64,000 bases of DNA from Verrucomicrobiota bacterium (GCA_028293545.1 JAQGOP010000018.1:1-64000), one strand, 5' to 3'; positions 39,833-55,607 are shown, numbered from the stretch's first letter. Notes: a model not told the origin generated them from the sequence alone. Made by a program: numbers and translations.

Positions 39833-42394
39833 TCAGAGCAAACTCAGCTGCGAGTCGTCCACCGGTGTCACGGTGATCTTTTTCTTCGGACGCGCCTGGG
39901 GCGCAGAAACCGTCACGCTGGTGTCGTCGCTCTCGAGTTTGCTGAGGATCGTCTTGGCGCGGTCGATCACGCTCAACGGCAGCCCCGCAAGGCGCGCGAC
40001 CTGGATTCCGTAGCTGCGGTCGGCGGCCCCGGGAATCACGCGGCGCACAAAAACGATTTCATCCTGCCACTCCTTCACCGCCACCGAGAAATTCCGCAGG
40101 CGCGGCAGGTGTTTATCGAGCTGCGTCAGCTCCTGGTAATGCGTCGCGAACAAAGTCCGGGGTCCCGACTCCGGCTCGCGATGCAGGTGCTCGACGACGG
40201 CCCACGCGATCGAAAGTCCATCGTAGGTCGAAGTGCCGCGACCGATCTCGTCGAGGATGATGAGGGAGCGGGAAGTCGCGTTGTTCAGGATGTTGGCGGT
40301 CTCGTTCATCTCGACCATGAAAGTCGAGTTGCCGCGCGCCAGGTCGTCGCTGGCGCCCACGCGTGAAAAAATCCGATCGACCAGTCCCACCCGGCAGGCC
40401 TTCGCCGGCACCCAGCAGCCGACCTGTGCGAGCAAAGTGATCAAAGCGACCTGGCGAATGTAGGTGGATTTGCCCGCCATGTTCGGGCCGGTGATCAGCG
40501 CGATCTGCGCGTCGTCGCACGCGAGGAGCGTGTCGTTCGGCACGAAGGACTGGCTCGTGCCGCGGGCGAGCGCGGCGTCGGGGGCCTTGAGCATCTGCTC
40601 GACCACCGGATGGCGACCGTCGGAAATTTCGAGGACGTTGCCCTCGTCGAGCGCGGGCTTGGTGTAGTTCCATTCGCGCGCGAGCACGGCCCAACCGGCG
40701 AGGACGTCGAGCTCGGCCAGGGCATCGGCGGCTTGGGACAGGGCGAGCGATTCGTCGAGCACCGCGGCGACGAGCTGGTTGAAAATTTCCAGTTCGCGGG
40801 CGAGTGCTTTTTCCTCGGCGTGAAAGATTTCCTTCTCCTTCAATCGCAGGCCCTCGGTCACGTAGCGTTCGCCGCCGACCGTGGTTTGGCGCCGAATGTA
40901 GTCGACGGGAACGAGGTGCAGGTTGGCCTTGGTAACCTCGATGTAATATCCGAAATTATTCGTGAACCTGACTTTCAGGCTGCGAATCGTGGTTCGCGCC
41001 TGCTCGGTGCGTTCGAGTTCGGAGAGCCAGGTTTTGTTGTCAGAGGTAAGCGAACGCAGCCGATCAAGTTCGGCATCGTAACCGGCGCGGATGTAATTCC
41101 CATCCGCCAAATCGTTCGGCAGTTCGTCCGCAAGTGAACTCGATAGCAGGTCGCGCAGGCTGGGCAATTCGGCGAGGCGGGGCACATAGTCCGCCGCCAG
41201 GCGTCCACCGTAGGCGGCCAGTTCGGCCCGGCTCGCGGGCAACTGGAGCAGGGTGTCTTTCACGCCGCCCAACTCGCGCGGGTTGCGCAGGCGATTCTGC
41301 AGGCGTCCAAGGATGCGCGGGATGTCGCGCACGCTCGCGAATTGCTCGCGCAGGGTCGCCAGTCGCGTGGGTTGGGCAAGCAATTCCCCGACAAGGTCCT
41401 GGCGGCGGGTGATCTCGAAAAGATCGAGCGTGGGTGATGCCAGCCAGCGCTCGAGTAGGCGCGTCCCGGTCGAAGTCGTCGTGCGATTGATCGCGCTGAG
41501 GAGGGATCCTTCCCGCGCACCGTGGCTCGAGGAAAAAATCTCCAGGTTCCGCAAGGTCGCGGGATCGAGGAGCAGCGTGCGGGCGCTGCGGTATTCCTGG
41601 AGGCCGCGGAGATTTTCAGGTTTGGCGCACAGGTTTTCGGTCGCATAAAAAACCAACGCCCCGGCGGGCCCGAGGGCGGGGTGCGAGTGCACCAGGCCGA
41701 AGCCCTGGAGATTCAGCACGCCGAGCGTGTCCATCACGGTTTTTGCGCCGGTGGCGGATTCGAAATGATAACCGGAAAGCTCCGTGCACAGCCGCGATGA
41801 CCCGAAGGCGTGCAGCGCATGCACGGCGGCCTGGTCGTGGGGCGCGCCCGCCCAGCGCCCGAGTTCACCTTCGATCACGAGCAATTCCGCCGGGTCCAAG
41901 GCGGTGAGGACCGGGAGCAGGTTCGCGATGTGGGCATCGGTCGCGATCTTGAATTCACCGGTGGACAAATCCAGCCACGAGGCGTGGAGGCCATGTTTGT
42001 CGAGGACCAGTGCGCAGAGGTAATGATTGCGCGCGGCGTCGAGCTGGTTGGCGGAGAGCGTGGTGCCGGGGGAGAGGATGCGGGTCAGCTGGCGCCGGAC
42101 GAGTCGACCGGGTTGGGCCGTTTCGGCCTGGTCACAGATCGCGACTTTTTTCCCGGCGGCGAGCAGCTTGGTGACATAATTGTCCGCGGAGTGGGCGGGA
42201 ATGCCCGCCATCGGTGTCTCCTGGCGCTTGGTGAGCGTGAGGCCGAGGAGTTTCGACGCGACGACGGCGTCGTCGAAAAACATCTCGAAGAAATCCCCGA
42301 GACGGAAGAGGAGCAGGGTGTCGCGCGGCAGGCCACGTCTCACCTCGAAGTATTGGGCCATCATCGGAGTCATAACTCGTTTATACCCGGTCAT
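39833..42394 (-). CDS. mutS: DNA mismatch repair protein MutS
   Basis: MTPMMAQYFEVRRGLPRDTLLLFRLGDFFEMF, TGPNMAGKSTYIRQ, DEIGRGTSTYDG; start 42394 or 42373. Confidence 0.97.
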   Translation of the reverse strand: MTGYKRVMTPMMAQYFEVRRGLPRDTLLLFRLGDFFEMFFDDAVVASKLLGLTLTKRQETPMAGIPAHSADNYVTKLLAAGKKVAICDQAETAQPGRLVRRQLTRILSPGTTLSANQLDAARNHYLCALVLDKHGLHASWLDLSTGEFKIATDAHIANLLPVLTALDPAELLVIEGELGRWAGAPHDQAAVHALHAFGSSRLCTELSGYHFESATGAKTVMDTLGVLNLQGFGLVHSHPALGPAGALVFYATENLCAKPENLRGLQEYRSARTLLLDPATLRNLEIFSSSHGAREGSLLSAINRTTTSTGTRLLERWLASPTLDLFEITRRQDLVGELLAQPTRLATLREQFASVRDIPRILGRLQNRLRNPRELGGVKDTLLQLPASRAELAAYGGRLAADYVPRLAELPSLRDLLSSSLADELPNDLADGNYIRAGYDAELDRLRSLTSDNKTWLSELERTEQARTTIRSLKVRFTNNFGYYIEVTKANLHLVPVDYIRRQTTVGGERYVTEGLRLKEKEIFHAEEKALARELEIFNQLVAAVLDESLALSQAADALAELDVLAGWAVLAREWNYTKPALDEGNVLEISDGRHPVVEQMLKAPDAALARGTSQSFVPNDTLLACDDAQIALITGPNMAGKSTYIRQVALITLLAQVGCWVPAKACRVGLVDRIFSRVGASDDLARGNSTFMVEMNETANILNNATSRSLIILDEIGRGTSTYDGLSIAWAVVEHLHREPESGPRTLFATHYQELTQLDKHLPRLRNFSVAVKEWQDEIVFVRRVIPGAADRSYGIQVARLAGLPLSVIDRAKTILSKLESDDTSVTVSAPQARPKKKITVTPVDDSQLSLL

Positions 42395-42753
42395 TATACC
42401 CGCCCAAAACAGTCTTCAATTGTTCGCCGATGTCTGGATGAAATTCGGACATTCCGACGATCTGAGACTAAAATCATCACCATCGCAAAACCCAAAACGG
42501 TGTGCAGAGTGAAGTGCTGGCGGAGAATTTTGGAATTAGCGGCGATGGCGGGTGCGGCGGTGGAATGCGGGACCGGCGAACCATACTTTGAAGACGGAGA
42601 ACAAAATTGAGGCGTAGACAGAATTTTTCCTGTCGATTCTCTCTCCAAGTCATAAACCCGTCGCAAGACCTCTCTGCCGCCCTTGCTATCCAGATCCGAT
42701 TTGCTGAAATCCAAGGCTAAAAACCACCTCAACTCTCGCCATCCTGCAGACTT

Positions 42754-44088
42754 ATGCCCGCTAGTGGAATCAAGCCCCGTCGACCGCCGTTCAAGGCGTA
42801 TGCGCCCTATGTCGCGCGCATTCAAGATTTGATGGCCGCGCCAGGCACAACACCACAGTGGGATGCGGCGGCCGATGCCGCTTTGGACGGCCAGGCAGGG
42901 GCTGAGCTTAGGCAGCTCGTGGGGCTTGCGACTCGCCGCCGGTTTGGCGCGTTCTTTACCGGGACATCGTTGAGCGCCCGCTTGCTCAAGAACTCACAGT
43001 CGTCAGGCATCGCCTATGACCCGACCTGCGGGATGGGTGATCTCCTGGTCGCCGCAGCGCGCAAATTACCGCTCGGCTGCAACCTCACGCAAACCCTCGC
43101 TCTGTGGGGGAAGAATCTGGCCGGCACGGACCTCCATCGCGAATTCATCGCCGGAACCAAAACCCGGCTCGTGCTCCTTGCGCGGCAGCGCCACGGATTG
43201 GCCAGCGGCTACCCGGTTAACACCGTGGAGAATCTATTCCCCCTGATCCGCGTGGGGAATGGGCTGCGGGCCCAAGAACAGTTCCGGAGAGCGGACCGGC
43301 TCCTCATGAACCCGCCCTTCGGCCAAAAAAGAGCCGCGAAAGGCTGTACGTGGGCCAGTGGAACGGTGTCCCGCGCGGCAGAATTCATCGTCAACGCCCT
43401 GGAGAAGGTGCGACCCGGTGCTGAGCTGCTCGCCATTCTCCCCGATGTGCTGCGGTCGGGCAGTTTTTCCGCAAGGTGGCGCGAGAAGATCAGCGATCTC
43501 GCAGAGGTGCATATCGTTCGTGCCTGCGGCCTGTTCGACGAGAGTGCCGATGTAGATGTTTTCCTGTTGCGGCTCGTGCGCCGGGCCAAGGGGGTATCGG
43601 TTCAGCGGAAGCGCTGGCCGTACACGCGCCACGCAGGGGCCTCGCGGCTCAGCGACCATTTCACCGTCAGCGTCGGGCGTGTGGTGCCGCACCGTGATCC
43701 GGAGACGGGCGCGTCCTACGCCTATATTCATCCCCGCGGCGTCCCGGCTTGGAAAACCATGCGCCAGTTTGCGGAGAGCCGCCGGCACGAGGGCGAGGCG
43801 TTCCAAGCCCCGTTTGTCGTGATCCGCCGCACCTCGCGGCCCGAGCATCCCCATCGAGCCACGGGCAGCGTGATCGGCGGGCGGCAGAAAATCCTCGTCG
43901 AAAATCACCTGCTGGTCTGCGCGCCCAATGATGGCACGGTGCGGACATGTCGCAAACTGCTGCGGCAACTCAAGACCGTGAAAGTGAACCAAGTTCTGAA
44001 CCGGCGTATCCGCTGCCGCCATCTTACAGTGACAGCGGTGAAAGGGATTCCTTTTTCAGCCGGCGGCCGGCGGAGGAAAAAGAAATGA
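42754..44088 (+). CDS. HsdM/Eco57I-like N6-adenine DNA methyltransferase
   Basis: Motif I DPTCGMGDLL, motif IV LLMNPPFGQ. Confidence 0.85.
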   Translation: MPASGIKPRRPPFKAYAPYVARIQDLMAAPGTTPQWDAAADAALDGQAGAELRQLVGLATRRRFGAFFTGTSLSARLLKNSQSSGIAYDPTCGMGDLLVAAARKLPLGCNLTQTLALWGKNLAGTDLHREFIAGTKTRLVLLARQRHGLASGYPVNTVENLFPLIRVGNGLRAQEQFRRADRLLMNPPFGQKRAAKGCTWASGTVSRAAEFIVNALEKVRPGAELLAILPDVLRSGSFSARWREKISDLAEVHIVRACGLFDESADVDVFLLRLVRRAKGVSVQRKRWPYTRHAGASRLSDHFTVSVGRVVPHRDPETGASYAYIHPRGVPAWKTMRQFAESRRHEGEAFQAPFVVIRRTSRPEHPHRATGSVIGGRQKILVENHLLVCAPNDGTVRTCRKLLRQLKTVKVNQVLNRRIRCRHLTVTAVKGIPFSAGGRRRKKK

Positions 44089-46439
44089 GCGAGGGCGAAA
44101 CCCAGCCGGCTGGAAAGGAAGGCATCAATCCGTCCGGACGCACGCTGCTCGGCAACACGGCGTTCTCCGTGAGCGCGCGGGTCGCCCTCCAACTCGGACG
44201 GGAGAGCATTTCCAGCTCAGTTACCGCGATTTTGGAACTGGTGAAGAACGCCTACGACGCGGATGCCGATGTCGTGCGCATCCGCTTTGGCAATCTCAAG
44301 GTCGGTCCCGCCTCGATGGTGGTGGAGGACGACGGCAAGGGAATGACGGCCGAAGACCTGCAGAAAAACTGGATGGTGATCGGCACCTCTAACAAGCTTG
44401 TCGCCCGACGCTCCGTGGGGCGAAACCGCGTGCTGACTGGCGAGAAAGGCCTGGGCCGACTCGGTCTCGACCGTTTGTGCCGGCGCACGCGGGTGCAAAG
44501 CCTCCAGGAGGGAGGTCCCGGCGTTGAACTAGATGTCGATTGGACGAAATACGAAGTGGCCAAGTCCCGGCTCGAGGAGATCGCGCATCCTTTCTACAAG
44601 ATTGACGGCCTCGGTGCCGACCCGATCACCGGGGAATCGCGCGATTTCCCGCACGGCACGCGGCTGGTCCTGGAGAATCTCACCGATCCGTGGAACGAGG
44701 CGGCCGTGGCCGAGCTGCATGGCGAACTCTCGCTCCTCATCTCGCCGTTCCACGGGAAGAATGACTTCCGCGTGGAGCTGGAGACAGGCGGGGCATATCC
44801 GCAATACGACGGCGTGGTGCAGCCGGATGCCGTCATCCTGCAGAAAGCCTATTGGCGCATCGTGGCGACCATTGATGAACACGGTGTGGTCGACCGCCGC
44901 ATGGATTCGCGGCAGCATGACCGCGTCTTCCATCCTCCGGCGGTGCCATGGGCGGACTTCGCGAAATACGAAGGGGACGAGCCGAAGTGCGGTCCTCTCA
45001 AGTTCGAATTTTTCTTTTTCAATCGCGGTGAATGGGATTCGGAGACGCAGACGATTTCGCTCACCCAGCTCGGCGAGTTCCTCAAGAGCAACCAGGGCGT
45101 GCGAATCTATCGCGATGGTTTTCGCGTCAAGCCCTACGGCGAGCCGTCGGGGGAAGGGGACTGGCTCCGACTCGGCTACCGCCGCACCATCAATCCCGAG
45201 GGTGTCAAACAGGGCACCAACTGGAAGCTGGGCTATAATCAGGTGGTCGGCGCGGTCTTTCTGGAGCGGGAGCGCAACACGGCGCTCATCGACCAGACGA
45301 ACCGCGAGGGACTCGTGGTGGGCGAACCGTTCCGCCATCTCTATATATTCGCCGACAAGATCATCCAGTTTTTCGAGAAGAATCACCAAAAGTTCGAAAA
45401 AGAGCGTGCGGCTATCGAAAAAGCCAAGGCACCGACCGAGGCCGACCAGGATGCGGCCGCCGCCGCGTCGTCGGCCGAGAAGGCCTTACGCGAGCTCACG
45501 GAACTGGCGCAGCGCTTCGAGCAACTTACCACGCCACCGCCGGCAGGAGCCCCGCCGCCGCCGGCGCCTGGCACCATCGGCCGGACTTTGGAGCAGGCCA
45601 ACGCCGCGCTGGGCCAGGCGGTGCGCACACTGGAGCAAAAGGCCCGCACCGAGACGGACCGTCGGGAGCAGGTAGAGCGCGAGAAGAACACCCTTGCGAA
45701 CCTTGCCTCGCTCGGAATTCTTTCCGCGTGTTTCGGCCACGAAACCTCCGGCTGGTCCAACACCGTGCAGGTGCACGCCCTGTGGCTGACTCGAAACCTC
45801 AAGAGCCAGCTCTACATGGTGAATCCGGAGGTGGAGGGGAAAGTTTTGGAAATCCTCGGTCACCTCGGGACGGACGCCCGCAAGCTGAGCACATTTGCCT
45901 CGTTTGCACTCGGCAACGTGCGGCCCGACAAACGCCGCCAGCGGACTTTCTGCGTCAAGACCCTGGCCCTCTCGGTTTTCAAGGCGTTCGAGGATTCCCT
46001 GCAGCACCAGAAGCAGATCACGACCGACCTGACGCAGCTGCCCGCGCACACGTGCATGATCCACGCCTATCGCATCGACTGGGAGAGCATCTTCGCCAAC
46101 CTGATTACGAATTCCATGTGGGCGCTCACGCGGCAGCAGGCGGCCCGGAAGATCGGATTTTCCATCGTGGCTGAACCCGACAAACTCACCCTGACCTTCG
46201 AGGACAGCGGCCCCGGGCTGGAGGCCGGCACCGAGGAGCAGGTGTTTGAGGCCGGCTTTTCGACCAAGCGAAACAACAAGGGCGAGCAGGAAGGCACCGG
46301 CATGGGCCTCTTCATCGTGAAGTCCTTCGTCGTCGATAACAGCGGCGGCACCATCCGCGCCATCGCCAAAGGCGGACTTGGCGGCGCGACATTCATCATC
46401 ACCGTGCCCCGGGCCGAAGAGCCCGCCAATGCCCCATGA
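44085..46439 (+). CDS. Dual-GHKL protein: N-terminal Hsp90/MORC-like ATPase plus C-terminal histidine-kinase module
   Basis: N-terminal ILELVKNAYDADADVVRI, VVEDDGKGM, GEKGLGRLG. C-terminal SACFGHETSGW (H box), FANLITNSMWAL (N box), FEDSGPGLE, GTGMGLFIVK. Confidence 0.88.
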   Translation: MSEGETQPAGKEGINPSGRTLLGNTAFSVSARVALQLGRESISSSVTAILELVKNAYDADADVVRIRFGNLKVGPASMVVEDDGKGMTAEDLQKNWMVIGTSNKLVARRSVGRNRVLTGEKGLGRLGLDRLCRRTRVQSLQEGGPGVELDVDWTKYEVAKSRLEEIAHPFYKIDGLGADPITGESRDFPHGTRLVLENLTDPWNEAAVAELHGELSLLISPFHGKNDFRVELETGGAYPQYDGVVQPDAVILQKAYWRIVATIDEHGVVDRRMDSRQHDRVFHPPAVPWADFAKYEGDEPKCGPLKFEFFFFNRGEWDSETQTISLTQLGEFLKSNQGVRIYRDGFRVKPYGEPSGEGDWLRLGYRRTINPEGVKQGTNWKLGYNQVVGAVFLERERNTALIDQTNREGLVVGEPFRHLYIFADKIIQFFEKNHQKFEKERAAIEKAKAPTEADQDAAAAASSAEKALRELTELAQRFEQLTTPPPAGAPPPPAPGTIGRTLEQANAALGQAVRTLEQKARTETDRREQVEREKNTLANLASLGILSACFGHETSGWSNTVQVHALWLTRNLKSQLYMVNPEVEGKVLEILGHLGTDARKLSTFASFALGNVRPDKRRQRTFCVKTLALSVFKAFEDSLQHQKQITTDLTQLPAHTCMIHAYRIDWESIFANLITNSMWALTRQQAARKIGFSIVAEPDKLTLTFEDSGPGLEAGTEEQVFEAGFSTKRNNKGEQEGTGMGLFIVKSFVVDNSGGTIRAIAKGGLGGATFIITVPRAEEPANAP

Positions 46440-47074
46440 CAACGCATACCATGCTGCTGGTGGACGAGAACGAGCAACAGCGCCATGCCTACGGCCTGGT
46501 GCTCAACGAGCTTTTCCACGGGACGGGGGTTGTGGTCAAACCGATCGTGCCGCTGCCCCAGCCGGTGGACTATAACGTCCTGGTGGCCGGCGAGAACGTC
46601 TCGGCGTTGATCCTCGACCAGAAAATGGAGGACGGCAGCGTCGGCTACACCGGCACGCAGCTCTCGACGTTCGTGCGCGGCGTGGTGCCGAAGCTGCCGA
46701 TCTTCATCCTCTCCAACTACACGGAGGAAAAGGAGCTTTTCGAAGCGGGTGAAAGCGATGTCGAATACATCATCGACAAGAAGCACCTCAACGATCCCAC
46801 GTCGCGGGAGGCGCAAATTTTCAAAGCCCGGGTGTTGCGGCGCCTCAACGTCTTCGCCGACGTCCTGGCGGAGCGCGCCCAGCGCTACCACGACCTGCTC
46901 GTGAGAAGCCTCACCGCCCGCCTGAGCGCGGACGAGGAAAAGGAACTTGGCCTGCTTGACGTGGAACGGGCCGTGCCGCAGCAGGCGGCCGAGATTGTGG
47001 ACATCAAGACGCTGGACACGGCGATCGCGGATATTCGCAAGCGGCTGGAATCGGACGGGCCGGCGAAGCCATGA
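46436..47074 (+). CDS. Stand-alone response-regulator receiver-like protein
   Basis: LLVDENEQQRHAYGLVL, ALILDQKMEDGSVG, PIFILSNY, YIIDKKHL; helical C-terminal tail. Confidence 0.78.
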   Translation: MTTHTMLLVDENEQQRHAYGLVLNELFHGTGVVVKPIVPLPQPVDYNVLVAGENVSALILDQKMEDGSVGYTGTQLSTFVRGVVPKLPIFILSNYTEEKELFEAGESDVEYIIDKKHLNDPTSREAQIFKARVLRRLNVFADVLAERAQRYHDLLVRSLTARLSADEEKELGLLDVERAVPQQAAEIVDIKTLDTAIADIRKRLESDGPAKP

Positions 47075-47757
47075 GCAAGGTCTCCGAATTCTTCGGCCCG
47101 CTCAAGCGGCGCCCGAAATACACCACGAAGCCAGACGGCACATTCTACTCCTTCACGTATTTCCGGGAGAATTTCCGCGCGGAGATCGTCGAGGATTGCC
47201 AATACCGGTGCGTGTATTGCGATTGCCACGAGGCCGAGATGGGCGGCAACGAAGTAATGGAGCTCGACCACTTCCGACCCTGGTCCCGCCCGGAATTCGC
47301 GGGACTGAAAAATGACCCCAATAATTTAAATCACGGCTGCCCGCGGTGCAACCGCCTCAAGGGGCCGCATTGGCCGTCGACCAAGGCCGGGTCGCCCCAC
47401 GACAGCAAGGTAGGGTTTGTCGATCCGTTCAACGAGAAGCGCGCGGACTATTTCAGCGTGAACGACGACGGCACGCTCGTCTGCCGTCAGGATCCCGGCC
47501 GTTACATCGCCGACCTGCTCCAGCTTCATCGGCCGCTTTTGCAGCGCCTCCGGCTGCGACGCGTGTTGCGACGTGCGGTCAACACCTACATAGCGAAGAT
47601 GCTCCCGGAGATCGAGGCCGCCAAGGCGGGTGGGGGCACGCTGACCCGCGAGCAGCTCGCCGCGGAATGGCTGAAGCTGAAAGACTATCAGCGGCTCCTT
47701 GATCTTTGTGACGCACCGCTCAAGGAGCTCAAAACGCTCCTGAGTGCAGCTGCATAG
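47071..47757 (+). CDS. HNH endonuclease
   Basis: CQYRCVYCDC...VMELDHFRPWSR...NLNHGCPRCNRLKG, a zinc-knuckle HNH. Confidence 0.9.
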   Translation: MSKVSEFFGPLKRRPKYTTKPDGTFYSFTYFRENFRAEIVEDCQYRCVYCDCHEAEMGGNEVMELDHFRPWSRPEFAGLKNDPNNLNHGCPRCNRLKGPHWPSTKAGSPHDSKVGFVDPFNEKRADYFSVNDDGTLVCRQDPGRYIADLLQLHRPLLQRLRLRRVLRRAVNTYIAKMLPEIEAAKAGGGTLTREQLAAEWLKLKDYQRLLDLCDAPLKELKTLLSAAA

Positions 47758-47958
47758 TTCCGTACCCGGCGAGCGGCATGACCAAGTTCCGCGTATACCG
47801 TGCGCTCAGTAGTCCTCGCGTGAATAACGCTGAGGTCGCTCCGCCCGTTATCGGCGATGACGTTCCGGTCCCCGCTACACCTAGAAAAAGGAAGGAGTCT
47901 GAATCGAGCGGATAGAGAAAAGTATTCTGACGTCCCGCTGCGGTCGCAGGGGTGGTGG

Positions 47959-48618
47959 CTAAATTGGATCCCGACGAGAACGCTCAATGCGCGCGAGGAT
48001 TTTTTGCATCGGCAGAAAATCTCGAATTAGATAGCGACCGAAATCTCCCAATAGGTCGTCGCCGCAAATTCGTTCCAGCGTGGCGTCTGGATTCTGAAGC
48101 AAGCGCCTTGCAACGATTGCTGTGGGCGGCGTTGCTTCGCCTTGTGCTAGAATCACTGCCCGCTGCATATCGAGAACAGCCGGTGCCAAGAGTTCGGCCA
48201 TCGTTTCTTCGCGAAGCAGCCGGCGTTTCAGGTATACTCGTGAAATCCGGATTAGAATCCGCTCGCATTTATTACTCACGGAAAAGTCGCCAATGAAAAC
48301 CTCGCTGCGCCACTTTCCATCTCCCTTGAGCCACTTGCCGTACCGGGCTGCGTGGTTGGCTAGTTCTGAACCGAGCCAGCTTTGAGCAGACAATTGCTTT
48401 GGCCGTACCCACATGAAATCTAGGCGACGTGTTTTCAACCTCTTGCCGTCTCCGATAAATATTAGGTCGAGGTCGGAGTACGGACCAATGGAACCATCTG
48501 CTCCGCTTCCAATTGCGATCACCTCAGAAGCTTGACGGATTGCTAGGTCGAAGACCGCGACATGCTCAGGTTCAGTTGAGGCTACGAACGCCCGTAAAAT
48601 TGAAATATCCGAATTCAT
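47959..48618 (-). CDS. MNT-like nucleotidyltransferase
   Basis: IGSGADGSIGPYSDLDLIFIG and downstream RLDFMWV (third Asp). Confidence 0.75.
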   Translation of the reverse strand: MNSDISILRAFVASTEPEHVAVFDLAIRQASEVIAIGSGADGSIGPYSDLDLIFIGDGKRLKTRRLDFMWVRPKQLSAQSWLGSELANHAARYGKWLKGDGKWRSEVFIGDFSVSNKCERILIRISRVYLKRRLLREETMAELLAPAVLDMQRAVILAQGEATPPTAIVARRLLQNPDATLERICGDDLLGDFGRYLIRDFLPMQKILARIERSRRDPI

Positions 48619-49019
48619 TCGGCGAGAAGCGCTGGCAGTTGTTCGTCCAAGAAGGTGGAAAAAGAGTCTTCGAAATCGGGGACGAGTTCGAGCAGCTCTT
48701 CAGCTTCCTCGTCTTCAAATGGATCACCGGAGCTGCCAGCGGAAAGCTCCTCCATGTTTTTCACAAGATCGATCAAGTCGTCGAGATTTACTCCTTCATC
48801 TTCGTTCAGCGCAGTCAGAACCGGAGTGAGATGGGGACCCCATTTTTTCTTTGGATCGCGCTCGACCGATATCGGCTCACGAAACTTCATGTCGGCGAGA
48901 AGATCCGCGACAGTAGACCAGCGTGTGTCTAGGTCAGAAATGTCTCCGTATTGGATCTGAGAAATAATGGCGTACATCGAGTTGTTGAGCCTTTCGATAA
49001 TCTTTGCGCGCTCGCTCAT
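48615..49019 (-). CDS. Acidic hypothetical protein
   Basis: Asp/Glu-rich ORF with ATGA overlaps to both neighbours. Confidence 0.65.
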   Translation of the reverse strand: MSERAKIIERLNNSMYAIISQIQYGDISDLDTRWSTVADLLADMKFREPISVERDPKKKWGPHLTPVLTALNEDEGVNLDDLIDLVKNMEELSAGSSGDPFEDEEAEELLELVPDFEDSFSTFLDEQLPALLAE

Positions 49020-49720
49020 TGGATTTCCTCTTCCTGCTTCGGTTTGGAAACATCTACTCGAACCGGGACAACCTTGGTTTTGTGTATGCCGACATTTACT
49101 GAGCGATCGACACTGACTTGGTTGATGACAGTGGTTGATTGATTTTTCTCCGGCTCAGGTCGCTGCCGTGATAGATGAAGGTAACCTAGGGCAATAAATC
49201 CGATAATCGTCAGCCCGTATTGAATTAAATAGAGACTGTTGAGTTTGAGCCTGAACATGTGCCGAATCTTATCCCAATATGACGTGCGCGCTGCCTGCTG
49301 CATCGTCGCGGCAATACGCGGACTCGTAAGCAGTTTTTCTCTTGCCTGTTTCTTAATCGCTTCGAGGCGGCGTGCCGGCCATTCGTCGTGGGGATTCACT
49401 GACGAATCGATATACTTCTCCAAAATGAACGCGCGGTCGCGCAGGCCCTTGCTGATAAATTCCTGCTCCTGCTCAAGGCCGTGGAAGATAAAGATTGTGC
49501 CGAGCACCATCACCAAGGCCAAGGTCAGGGCGACGTAAATAACCGTCGTCGATGCGCCGTCGGGGATTTTCCCGGTAAAGAGCCCCGCAAGAACTGCTGT
49601 TTGAAGAGTGAGCGACCATCCGCGCACCCGGAACTTGAATTCACCGATGCTATCGATCTTCTTTTGAATCTGCTCGTACTCTGCTCGCGCAACATCAAGC
49701 AGGGTTGTGTCGGTGCTCAT
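49016..49720 (-). CDS. Membrane protein with ~3 predicted TM helices and a charged C-terminal tail
   Basis: SLTLQTAVLAGLF, VIYVALTLALVMVLGTIFIF, LYLIQYGLTIIGFIALGYL. Confidence 0.7.
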   Translation of the reverse strand: MSTDTTLLDVARAEYEQIQKKIDSIGEFKFRVRGWSLTLQTAVLAGLFTGKIPDGASTTVIYVALTLALVMVLGTIFIFHGLEQEQEFISKGLRDRAFILEKYIDSSVNPHDEWPARRLEAIKKQAREKLLTSPRIAATMQQAARTSYWDKIRHMFRLKLNSLYLIQYGLTIIGFIALGYLHLSRQRPEPEKNQSTTVINQVSVDRSVNVGIHKTKVVPVRVDVSKPKQEEEIQ

Positions 49721-50077
49721 TGGGATGATCGCAAGTGTTGGATCATGAATCCCACGCCCGATGAAGCAATCTTATCGGGAAGTCGGTTGACCGCTCCTAT
49801 CCAACAAATGCATCAAGCTGCCGAATTACGTTCAGATGCTTGAAAAAAAAGGCAGCTCTTTTCGCGTTCGGATTCGAAGCTGCCGCGGAAGCCATCGGAA
49901 AGTTGCTTGCTGCGATATTCGCCGAAAGGGATCGAGTGCGTCCATTTTAACTCAGGATTCCGTCGAAATTTCTTCAACTTGCTCCGACGATTTTATACCC
50001 GGCCACTTATACCCACCCTTGCCAAACTAGGCGTTTTCCCAGAAATCGCGGCGAACATCCGGAATGCGTTTTCGCTC

Positions 50078-50182
50078 TAGGAAACGTCGGCGAACAATGT
50101 TTCGAACATCCACGAAAATGCTTGTTCGGTCACCTCGAAGTACTGCTGCATCATCGGCGTGAGTTTCGTATCCGGGCTCATT
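50078..50182 (-). pseudogene. Orphan MutS N-terminal fragment MSPDTKLTPMMQQYFEVTEQAFSWMFETLFADVS*
   Basis: Matches the start of the in-window MutS (MTPMMAQYFEV) and then stops. Confidence 0.75.
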
Positions 50183-50244
50183 GGGCCGGAAAACGCTCAC
50201 GGAATGCGGGCGAGGCGCAAAGGAAAAATCAGTTCACGCGTGAA

Positions 50245-50500
50245 GTAGCGCAGGCGGCCCGCCTGCCTGGGGGATCGAACCTCAATCCATTTGAACAGAA
50301 GGCAACCAAGGTAACGAAGAGATTCAGGTTCGCGAAACCGATCGTGCCATCGACGACGTGGTATCGAGAGTTCTCAAAACCTTTTCGTGAAGGGCCACGA
50401 AGGACTTCGCCGATCAGAACCGCTTCGTTACCTTCGTTGCCTTCTGTTCAAAAAGGAGTGGATGGCCCGATCTCCGGAGCAGGCGGGCGGCCTGCGCTAC
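50245..50500. repeat. Large composite inverted repeat (family-A REP plus GAACAGAAGGCAAC..AAGGTAACGAAG arms)
   Basis: Arms of ~80 nt in inverted orientation around a ~100-nt centre; boundaries +/- a few nt. Confidence 0.75.
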
Positions 50501-50542
50501 TTCGGACATTGCCCGGCGCGTTTTTGCGTGCGACAAGGCGCG

Positions 50543-54459
<3,917 letters not shown>

Positions 54460-54470
54460 GGATCGGAAAA

Positions 54471-54651
54471 GTAGCGCAGGCGGCCCGCCTGCTCCGGAAG
54501 TAGCGAGTAGTGAGTAGCGGGTAGCGAGTAGACGGACCCGGATCCGGACTTTCCGGGGAGCCGTGCACCGTTACCGTAGGGGGATCCGCTACTCGCTACT
54601 CACTACGCGCTACTCGCTACTTCGCAGAAGCAGGCGGGCCGCCTGCGCTAC
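54471..54651. repeat. Nested inverted repeat: family-A REPs enclosing GTAGCGAGTAGTGAGTAG / CTACTCGCTACTCACTAC arrays
   Basis: Left arm 54471-54532, right arm ~54588-54651, inverted. Confidence 0.85.
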
Positions 54652-55607
54652 TTCTGTGTCCAAAGCCGCAGGGAGCTGAGCATGAAATCCTCGAGCGCGG
54701 CCGACACGTTCAAGTTCAGCCGCAGCAGCCCGACGTCGTGCTCGAGCTTTTCAATCGCGGCCGGGTAGGAACGCCGCGTGCGTTCGTCGCCCGCGGTCAG
54801 CCGAGGGAGGGAAAATGCCCGCGTCGCGTTCTCGATCTCGGCAAACAGCCGCGAGCGAAGCCCGTTCGCAATCCCGGTTTCGATCGCGACCTGCTCGTCG
54901 TCGTCCAGGTCGGGCGGAAGTTTTTCCTTCTGCTCCTTCCACACGACATCCGTGGCCGCGTCCAGCACCGCGCCAAAGCGCGCGACCAACCCATAGAGCG
55001 TGAAGACCTGGTCCGCGATGGCGGCCTTGCCGCTCACGCCTTCCACCAGGCGCGCCAGCCACGCACTGTAATCTTCCAGCCACGGCGTCCAACCGTCGGC
55101 CTTGATCACCGTGCCGGCCGACGGAAACCGGAAATGCAGCACGCGGCTGCGGATCGTCGGCAGCAGCGCGTACGGGCGCGTCGTCAGCAGCAGCAGGGTC
55201 GTGTTGGCCGGCGGCTCCTCCAAGGTCTTCAGGAAGACATTGGCCGCCGCCGTGTTCATGCGATCGACCTCGTGGAGGATCGCGACCTTGCGCGGTGCGA
55301 CCGCCGGTGAAACCTGCACCTTGCCGATCAGCTCGCGCGTCGCGTCCGCCGAGATCTGCCGCATTTTCCCGGCGGGGCGCAGCATGAAACAATCCGGATG
55401 GTGATCGGGCGGGAAATTTGCCGTCGCGCCCTCGACGTTCAGCAGCCGATCCGCGATCGCGAGCGCGACCGCGGACAGCGTCTCATAGTCGTCGCCGTGG
55501 ATCAGCAGGCTATGCGACAGGCGCTGCCGGGCGATGGCTTGCTCGATCACCGCAACGGCCGGAGTGCCGGCGAGGGACGCGGGCCATGGAGTCGCGGCAG
55601 TCATCAT
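54648..55607 (-). CDS. holB: DNA polymerase III delta' subunit-like protein
   Basis: LSHSLLIHGDDYETLSAVA, ILHEVDRMNTAAANVFLKTLEEPPANTTLLLLTTRPYALLPTIRSR. Confidence 0.9.
   Translation of the reverse strand: MMTAATPWPASLAGTPAVAVIEQAIARQRLSHSLLIHGDDYETLSAVALAIADRLLNVEGATANFPPDHHPDCFMLRPAGKMRQISADATRELIGKVQVSPAVAPRKVAILHEVDRMNTAAANVFLKTLEEPPANTTLLLLTTRPYALLPTIRSRVLHFRFPSAGTVIKADGWTPWLEDYSAWLARLVEGVSGKAAIADQVFTLYGLVARFGAVLDAATDVVWKEQKEKLPPDLDDDEQVAIETGIANGLRSRLFAEIENATRAFSLPRLTAGDERTRRSYPAAIEKLEHDVGLLRLNLNVSAALEDFMLSSLRLWTQK

Follow-up and report, generated by a model that had tools for sequence, protein, structure and literature searches.

A mobile methyltransferase operon with a MORC-type histidine kinase, a receiver and an HNH nuclease: a candidate restriction-modification module gated by a phosphorelay

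Detocs is a phosphorelay defence system in which a kinase and a receiver control an effector, a likeness to the operon described here; we know of no methylase, MORC domain or HNH nuclease in Detocs. A literature search for a named phosphorelay restriction system returned only two relevant papers. Iyer (2008) described paraMORC ATPases in restriction-modification (R-M) operons, noting an HNH with paraMORC1; their function was not established, and a receiver is not named in that paper (PMC2292703). Bellieny-Rabelo (2021) linked a HATPase_c_3-kinase protein and its receiver partner to methyltransferases, mostly C5, and suggested that they form a two-component system connected with R-M, with no functional test reported; the corresponding domains are PF19191 (HEF_HK) and PF19192 (Response_reg_2) (PMC8011034).

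We analysed a 64,000-nucleotide stretch of a Verrucomicrobiota genome (the window), in which a same-strand quartet at 42754-47757 encodes an N6-adenine methyltransferase, a dual-GHKL protein, a receiver and an HNH nuclease (genes 1 to 4; Table 1). The four frames and their ATGA overlaps lie exactly where a sequence-only reading of this DNA had placed them. Its domain assignments also hold, by Pfam, by profile matches and, for the GHKL protein and the receiver, by predicted fold, and the translational coupling that it proposed is well supported by conservation of the whole module. An 830-aa reading of gene 2 was rejected, as the longer frame begins within gene 1. We propose, with a probability of roughly 0.58, that the operon is a mobile R-M module in which a cytoplasmic two-component phosphorelay gates the HNH nuclease.

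Table 1. Features of the operon, of the gene 2 protein and of the surrounding island (nucleotide positions counted from the first letter of the window)
Feature	Position	Strand	Length	Remark
Gene 1, N6-adenine DNA methyltransferase	42754..44088	+	444 aa	
ATGA start/stop overlap, methyltransferase-GHKL	44085..44088	+		
Gene 2, dual-GHKL protein	44085..46439	+	784 aa	counted from the ATGA start
Gene 2, MORC/paraMORC-type ATPase	about aa 19-413			
Gene 2, long coiled coil	aa 414-573			joins both halves
Gene 2, DHp phosphoryl-accepting His	H552			
Gene 2, CA kinase domain	about aa 667-777			
ATGA start/stop overlap, GHKL-receiver	46436..46439	+		
Gene 3, response-regulator receiver	46436..47074	+	212 aa	
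ATGA start/stop overlap, receiver-HNH	47071..47074	+		
Gene 4, HNH nuclease	47071..47757	+	228 aa	
Left direct repeat, att-like	42340..42370		31 bp	within the mutS 5' end
Island	42371..50129		~7.8 kb	holds the operon and three minus-strand genes; congeners lack it at this site (mutS 5' end)
Right direct repeat	50130..50160		31 bp	84% to left copy; resembles the congeners' native mutS 5' end

We compared the operon with the described systems. Like the HEF_HK/Response_reg_2 pair (PMC8011034), it combines HATPase_c_3, DHp and HATPase_c domains beside a receiver-like protein, with an adjoining methylase, and HNH or Vsr occurs in some neighbourhoods of that pair; it differs in its stand-alone 212-aa receiver, an N6 rather than C5 methylase, a fixed HNH and a separate clade. 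With paraMORC (PMC2292703) it shares the N-terminal GHKL-S5 ATPase, intact ATP motifs and the R-M neighbourhood, but here a histidine-kinase half, served by a receiver of its own, is joined to the ATPase, and there is no helicase. PF19191 matched none of 59 dual-GHKL proteins and nothing in 15 genomes, and PF19192 matched neither the window's receiver nor any of the loci tested. The PF19192 model itself works (two true matches elsewhere), and the kinase-like proteins beside those matches are, by profile, distant homologues of gene 2. Because of this homology and the two published precedents, the operon is not of an undescribed kind. The sequence-only claim of novelty thus holds in part: the broader kind is published (PMC2292703, PMC8011034), whereas PF19191 and PF19192 fail on the present form and PADLOC has no system for it. 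Judged from sequence, the form with an N6 methyltransferase, stand-alone receiver and HNH is set apart from the published pair, as the Pfam models miss it and its kinases form a separate clade.

Scans of the four genes with Pfam, NCBIfam and PADLOC-DB 2.0.0 gave no named system; zero PADLOC-DB systems fit the set, and no match to Detocs came up in that scan. The sequence-only reading had likewise not recognised the composition as a named system. Partial likenesses were found to several systems. Gene 4 resembles PtuB of Septu and retron PtuAB, but there is no PtuA-type ATPase here; the HNH adjoins the receiver and its partner is the GHKL protein. BbrUII/HgiDII restriction enzymes (NF050001) have a MORC-like GHKL N-terminus, yet gene 2 scored 75.5 bits against the NF050001 cut-off of 550, with only residues 28-216 matched. 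The methylase nearest to gene 1 in PADLOC is mad2 of MADS, and no other MADS gene was matched in the operon. Unlike Type I R-M, the island lacks the HsdS specificity and HsdR motor subunits.

Gene 1 passes the Pfam cut-off for N6_Mtase only barely. A profile built from 14 relatives found EcoKI M, BseCI and BpuSI among PDB structures, which makes the protein clearly type I/BseCI-like; the core is gamma/type I M-like, with motif I (DPTCGMGDLL) and motif IV (NPPF) intact. A C-terminal block, VENHLxV...RCRHLTV, is almost invariant among relatives, and the conserved domain around it (VENHLxV...RCRHLTV...IP) probably serves in target recognition, a presumption that counts against the phosphorelay-gated R-M reading.

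Gene 2 carries the Pfam domains HATPase_c_3 and HATPase_c. In structure matches of its AF2 model (mean pLDDT 85.5), the N-terminal half resembled the ATPases of human MORC2 and MORC3, some of them in DNA-bound structures, and the C-terminal half resembled active histidine kinases (HK853, CpxA and WalK-type). As modelled, the gene 2 protein is chimeric, with a MORC-type ATPase fused to a DHp-CA histidine kinase. Across the 59 dual-GHKL proteins, whose columns are only ~20% identical, both ATP sites are kept and E51, K121, H552, N672, N676, G739 and G741 are invariant.

The receiver (gene 3) is weak by Pfam and strong by profile and fold; its model (pLDDT 85) has a (beta/alpha)5 fold and matches REC domains. 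The receiver has D10, the phospho-acceptor D61 and K115, followed by a C-terminal helical extension (aa 124-206). D10 and D61 are invariant in 20/20 receivers, and the Asp equivalent to D61 in 42/42 other downstream proteins of the wider family. The hallmarks of a two-component system (conserved DHp His, kinase N and G boxes, receiver Asp) are present, and, since H552, the kinase boxes and the receiver Asp are invariant, the data support a working His-Asp relay, which we predict to be functional. The same residues weigh on another explanation, in which the GHKL ATPase would drive restriction by looping or clamping DNA between sites, with the kinase and receiver as a scaffold without phosphotransfer. 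The match of the MORC-like half to DNA-bound MORC2 and the looping or clamping proposed for paraMORC in 2008 (PMC2292703) fit such a role. Nevertheless, H552, the N and G boxes of the kinase half and D10 and D61 of the receiver would be unlikely to stay invariant over deep divergence if the relay were dead, and we hold this to be the least probable of the readings considered.

No DNA-binding domain was recognised on gene 3 or on the other receivers examined. This argues against the possibility that the kinase and receiver regulate how the R-M genes are expressed or established, for instance by delaying the nuclease after entry into a new host, instead of gating the nuclease protein itself. R-M systems commonly require late expression of their nuclease, a need with which such control would agree, and signalling as a control of R-M has been the subject of speculation. 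That speculation (PMC8011034) notwithstanding, the single polycistron with overlapping starts and the match between kinase clade and effector type (see below) also speak against control of expression, which we consider very unlikely.

Gene 4 has the residues of an HNH with a Zn-type Cys4 (C47, C50, C90 and C93), D66-H67, N85 and N94, and is closest to Cas9-like HNH and PtuB. Given this likeness, the nuclease might cut DNA or RNA, whether of a phage or of the cell itself, an ambiguity that counts against a phosphorelay-gated R-M system. In 72,556 plasmids we found only four homologues, each adjoining a dual-GHKL gene. Likewise, in 388 genomes of the phylum all four matches above 110 bits adjoin such a gene, as distinct from seven weaker ones (<84 bits). 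The HNH subfamily of gene 4 is, thus, nearly exclusive to the dual-GHKL module.

The operon recurs with its gene order unchanged in two further genomes of the family, at 27-45% protein identity per gene. Near full-length dual-GHKL genes with >40% identity occur in only 3/150 family genomes; this search used the whole of gene 2, ordinary kinases dominated its output, and only full-length matches were counted. Family relatives also have a more distant dual-GHKL protein (L011 and L012), which adjoins a small Cys-rich protein resembling a PAPS-reductase fragment. A genome-wide scan, which was pattern-seeded and is not a census, returned at least 80 loci with dual-GHKL relatives. Together with plasmid and phylum searches it gave 27 HNH-type loci, 26 of them independent because L041 and L092 are near-identical. 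The GHKL, receiver and HNH genes are contiguous and in the same order in all 27, and an N6 methyltransferase adjoins them, upstream or downstream, in 27/27 (of the window's own family in 9 and Eco57I-like in 18). The operon is far beyond chance, its gene order being kept in the two family genomes and the module in the 27 loci. Hosts include Planctomycetota, Kiritimatiellales, Pseudomonadota, Deinococcota, Bacteroidota, Gastranaerophilales and Clostridia. Some copies are on plasmids, with plasmid versions of the four-gene operon in Deinococcus gobiensis and Bacteroides finegoldii. The Klebsiella variicola copy, in which the GHKL gene is broken into three, may have decayed. No full-length copy was found in phage records, and no near copy of the Klebsiella plasmid operon in E. 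coli genomes.

Six sister operons (L039, L044, L045, L049, L051 and L112) combine the window's methylase family, a dual-GHKL protein and a receiver with a metallo-beta-lactamase (MBL)-fold protein, marked by an SHADxDHLAG motif, instead of the HNH. A receiver-MBL fusion in L051, considered as Rosetta-stone evidence, was discarded because it had arisen by extension in the wrong frame; the receiver at this locus is a separate protein of 232 aa. In further dual-GHKL operons the receiver is part of a larger fusion; many of these operons contain C5 methylases and some contain Vsr. In L031 and about 24 similar loci, the downstream receiver is fused to an uncharacterised domain that may be another effector and that shares the conserved motif GDxx...TPxCD. 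In the kinase tree, grouping follows the effector: HNH operons (SH-aLRT 93) and MBL operons (100) each fall together on one side of a branch, and two Pfam HEF_HK-type proteins stand apart from both (quick LG+G4 search, SH-aLRT support without bootstraps, five odd rows removed by hand). Since kinase clade and effector type go together, we argue that the effector is the target of the relay.

Swapping of effectors (HNH, MBL, receiver fusions) around a constant kinase-receiver core, as in signal-effector defence, and receivers without a recognisable DNA-binding output would also suit an abortive, toxin-like defence. There, the relay would keep the HNH off until infection, signalled by loss of ATP, a change in methylation or phage DNA, flipped it, leading to degradation of host and phage DNA, and the methylase would mainly protect or sense. 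The presence of a methylase partner in every one of the 27 loci, however, points to self/non-self marking, and we regard abortive defence as unlikely.

In the phosphorelay-gated R-M module that we favour, the methyltransferase would place N6-adenine marks on host DNA. The input would be the MORC-like N-terminal half of gene 2, which would dimerise and act on DNA, reading foreign or unmodified DNA or a methylase-DNA complex, and the coiled coil would relay this to the kinase half, setting it to autophosphorylate H552. Transfer of the phosphoryl group to D61 would alter the C-terminal helices of the receiver, which would directly hold or free the HNH nuclease, so that DNA is cut. We infer the input signal, phosphotransfer, receiver-HNH contact, sign of control and anti-phage function alike. 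The idea of phospho-signalled restriction, already put forward in the sequence-only reading, is well supported by conservation of the module, its intact catalytic residues (with invariant His and Asp), effector swapping and mobility. We see an even chance that a MORC-type DNA clamp-histidine kinase, acting through a receiver on an interchangeable nuclease (HNH, MBL fold or other), defines a distinct R-M class. If true, two-component signalling, best known in gene regulation, would directly control a DNA-cutting enzyme in a self/non-self system, and the bacterial MORC module would gain an input role, which bears on MORC ATPase function generally. The multi-phylum set with its swappable effectors is testable in laboratory strains, and the module set yields search profiles for what existing Pfam domains of the same kind miss.

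The operon belongs to a mobile module, found in an island at mutS here and on plasmids elsewhere. In 10/10 informative congeners (in an eleventh, a contig end splits the mutS site) mutS directly abuts the sequence found from 50132 onwards in the window, and the stretch between the repeats is therefore an insertion. The repeat is the mutS 5' end, and its left copy supplies mutS with a replacement start. No integrase was recognised within the island. The three minus-strand genes (47959-49720) are low in GC and encode proteins of 219, 134 and 234 aa; the first has a nucleotidyltransferase-like GSGADGSIGPYSDLD stretch, the last is a probable membrane protein, and none matched a family in Pfam or PADLOC. 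These function-unassigned genes (0/3 with a PADLOC match) count against the phosphorelay-gated R-M reading. Palindromic dispersed repeats (50241-50507 and 54468-54654) have dozens of copies in this genome and far fewer in most congeners. Elsewhere, plasmids of K. variicola (L108) and Enterobacter mori (L114) carry different dual-GHKL operons with the same PTS sorbitol neighbours, and thus share an insertion site beside these genes. In Lysinibacillus, the gene for a TnsE_C protein comes immediately before dual-GHKL and receiver-like genes (L090:6365-12220), which suggests that the latter are Tn7-like cargo.
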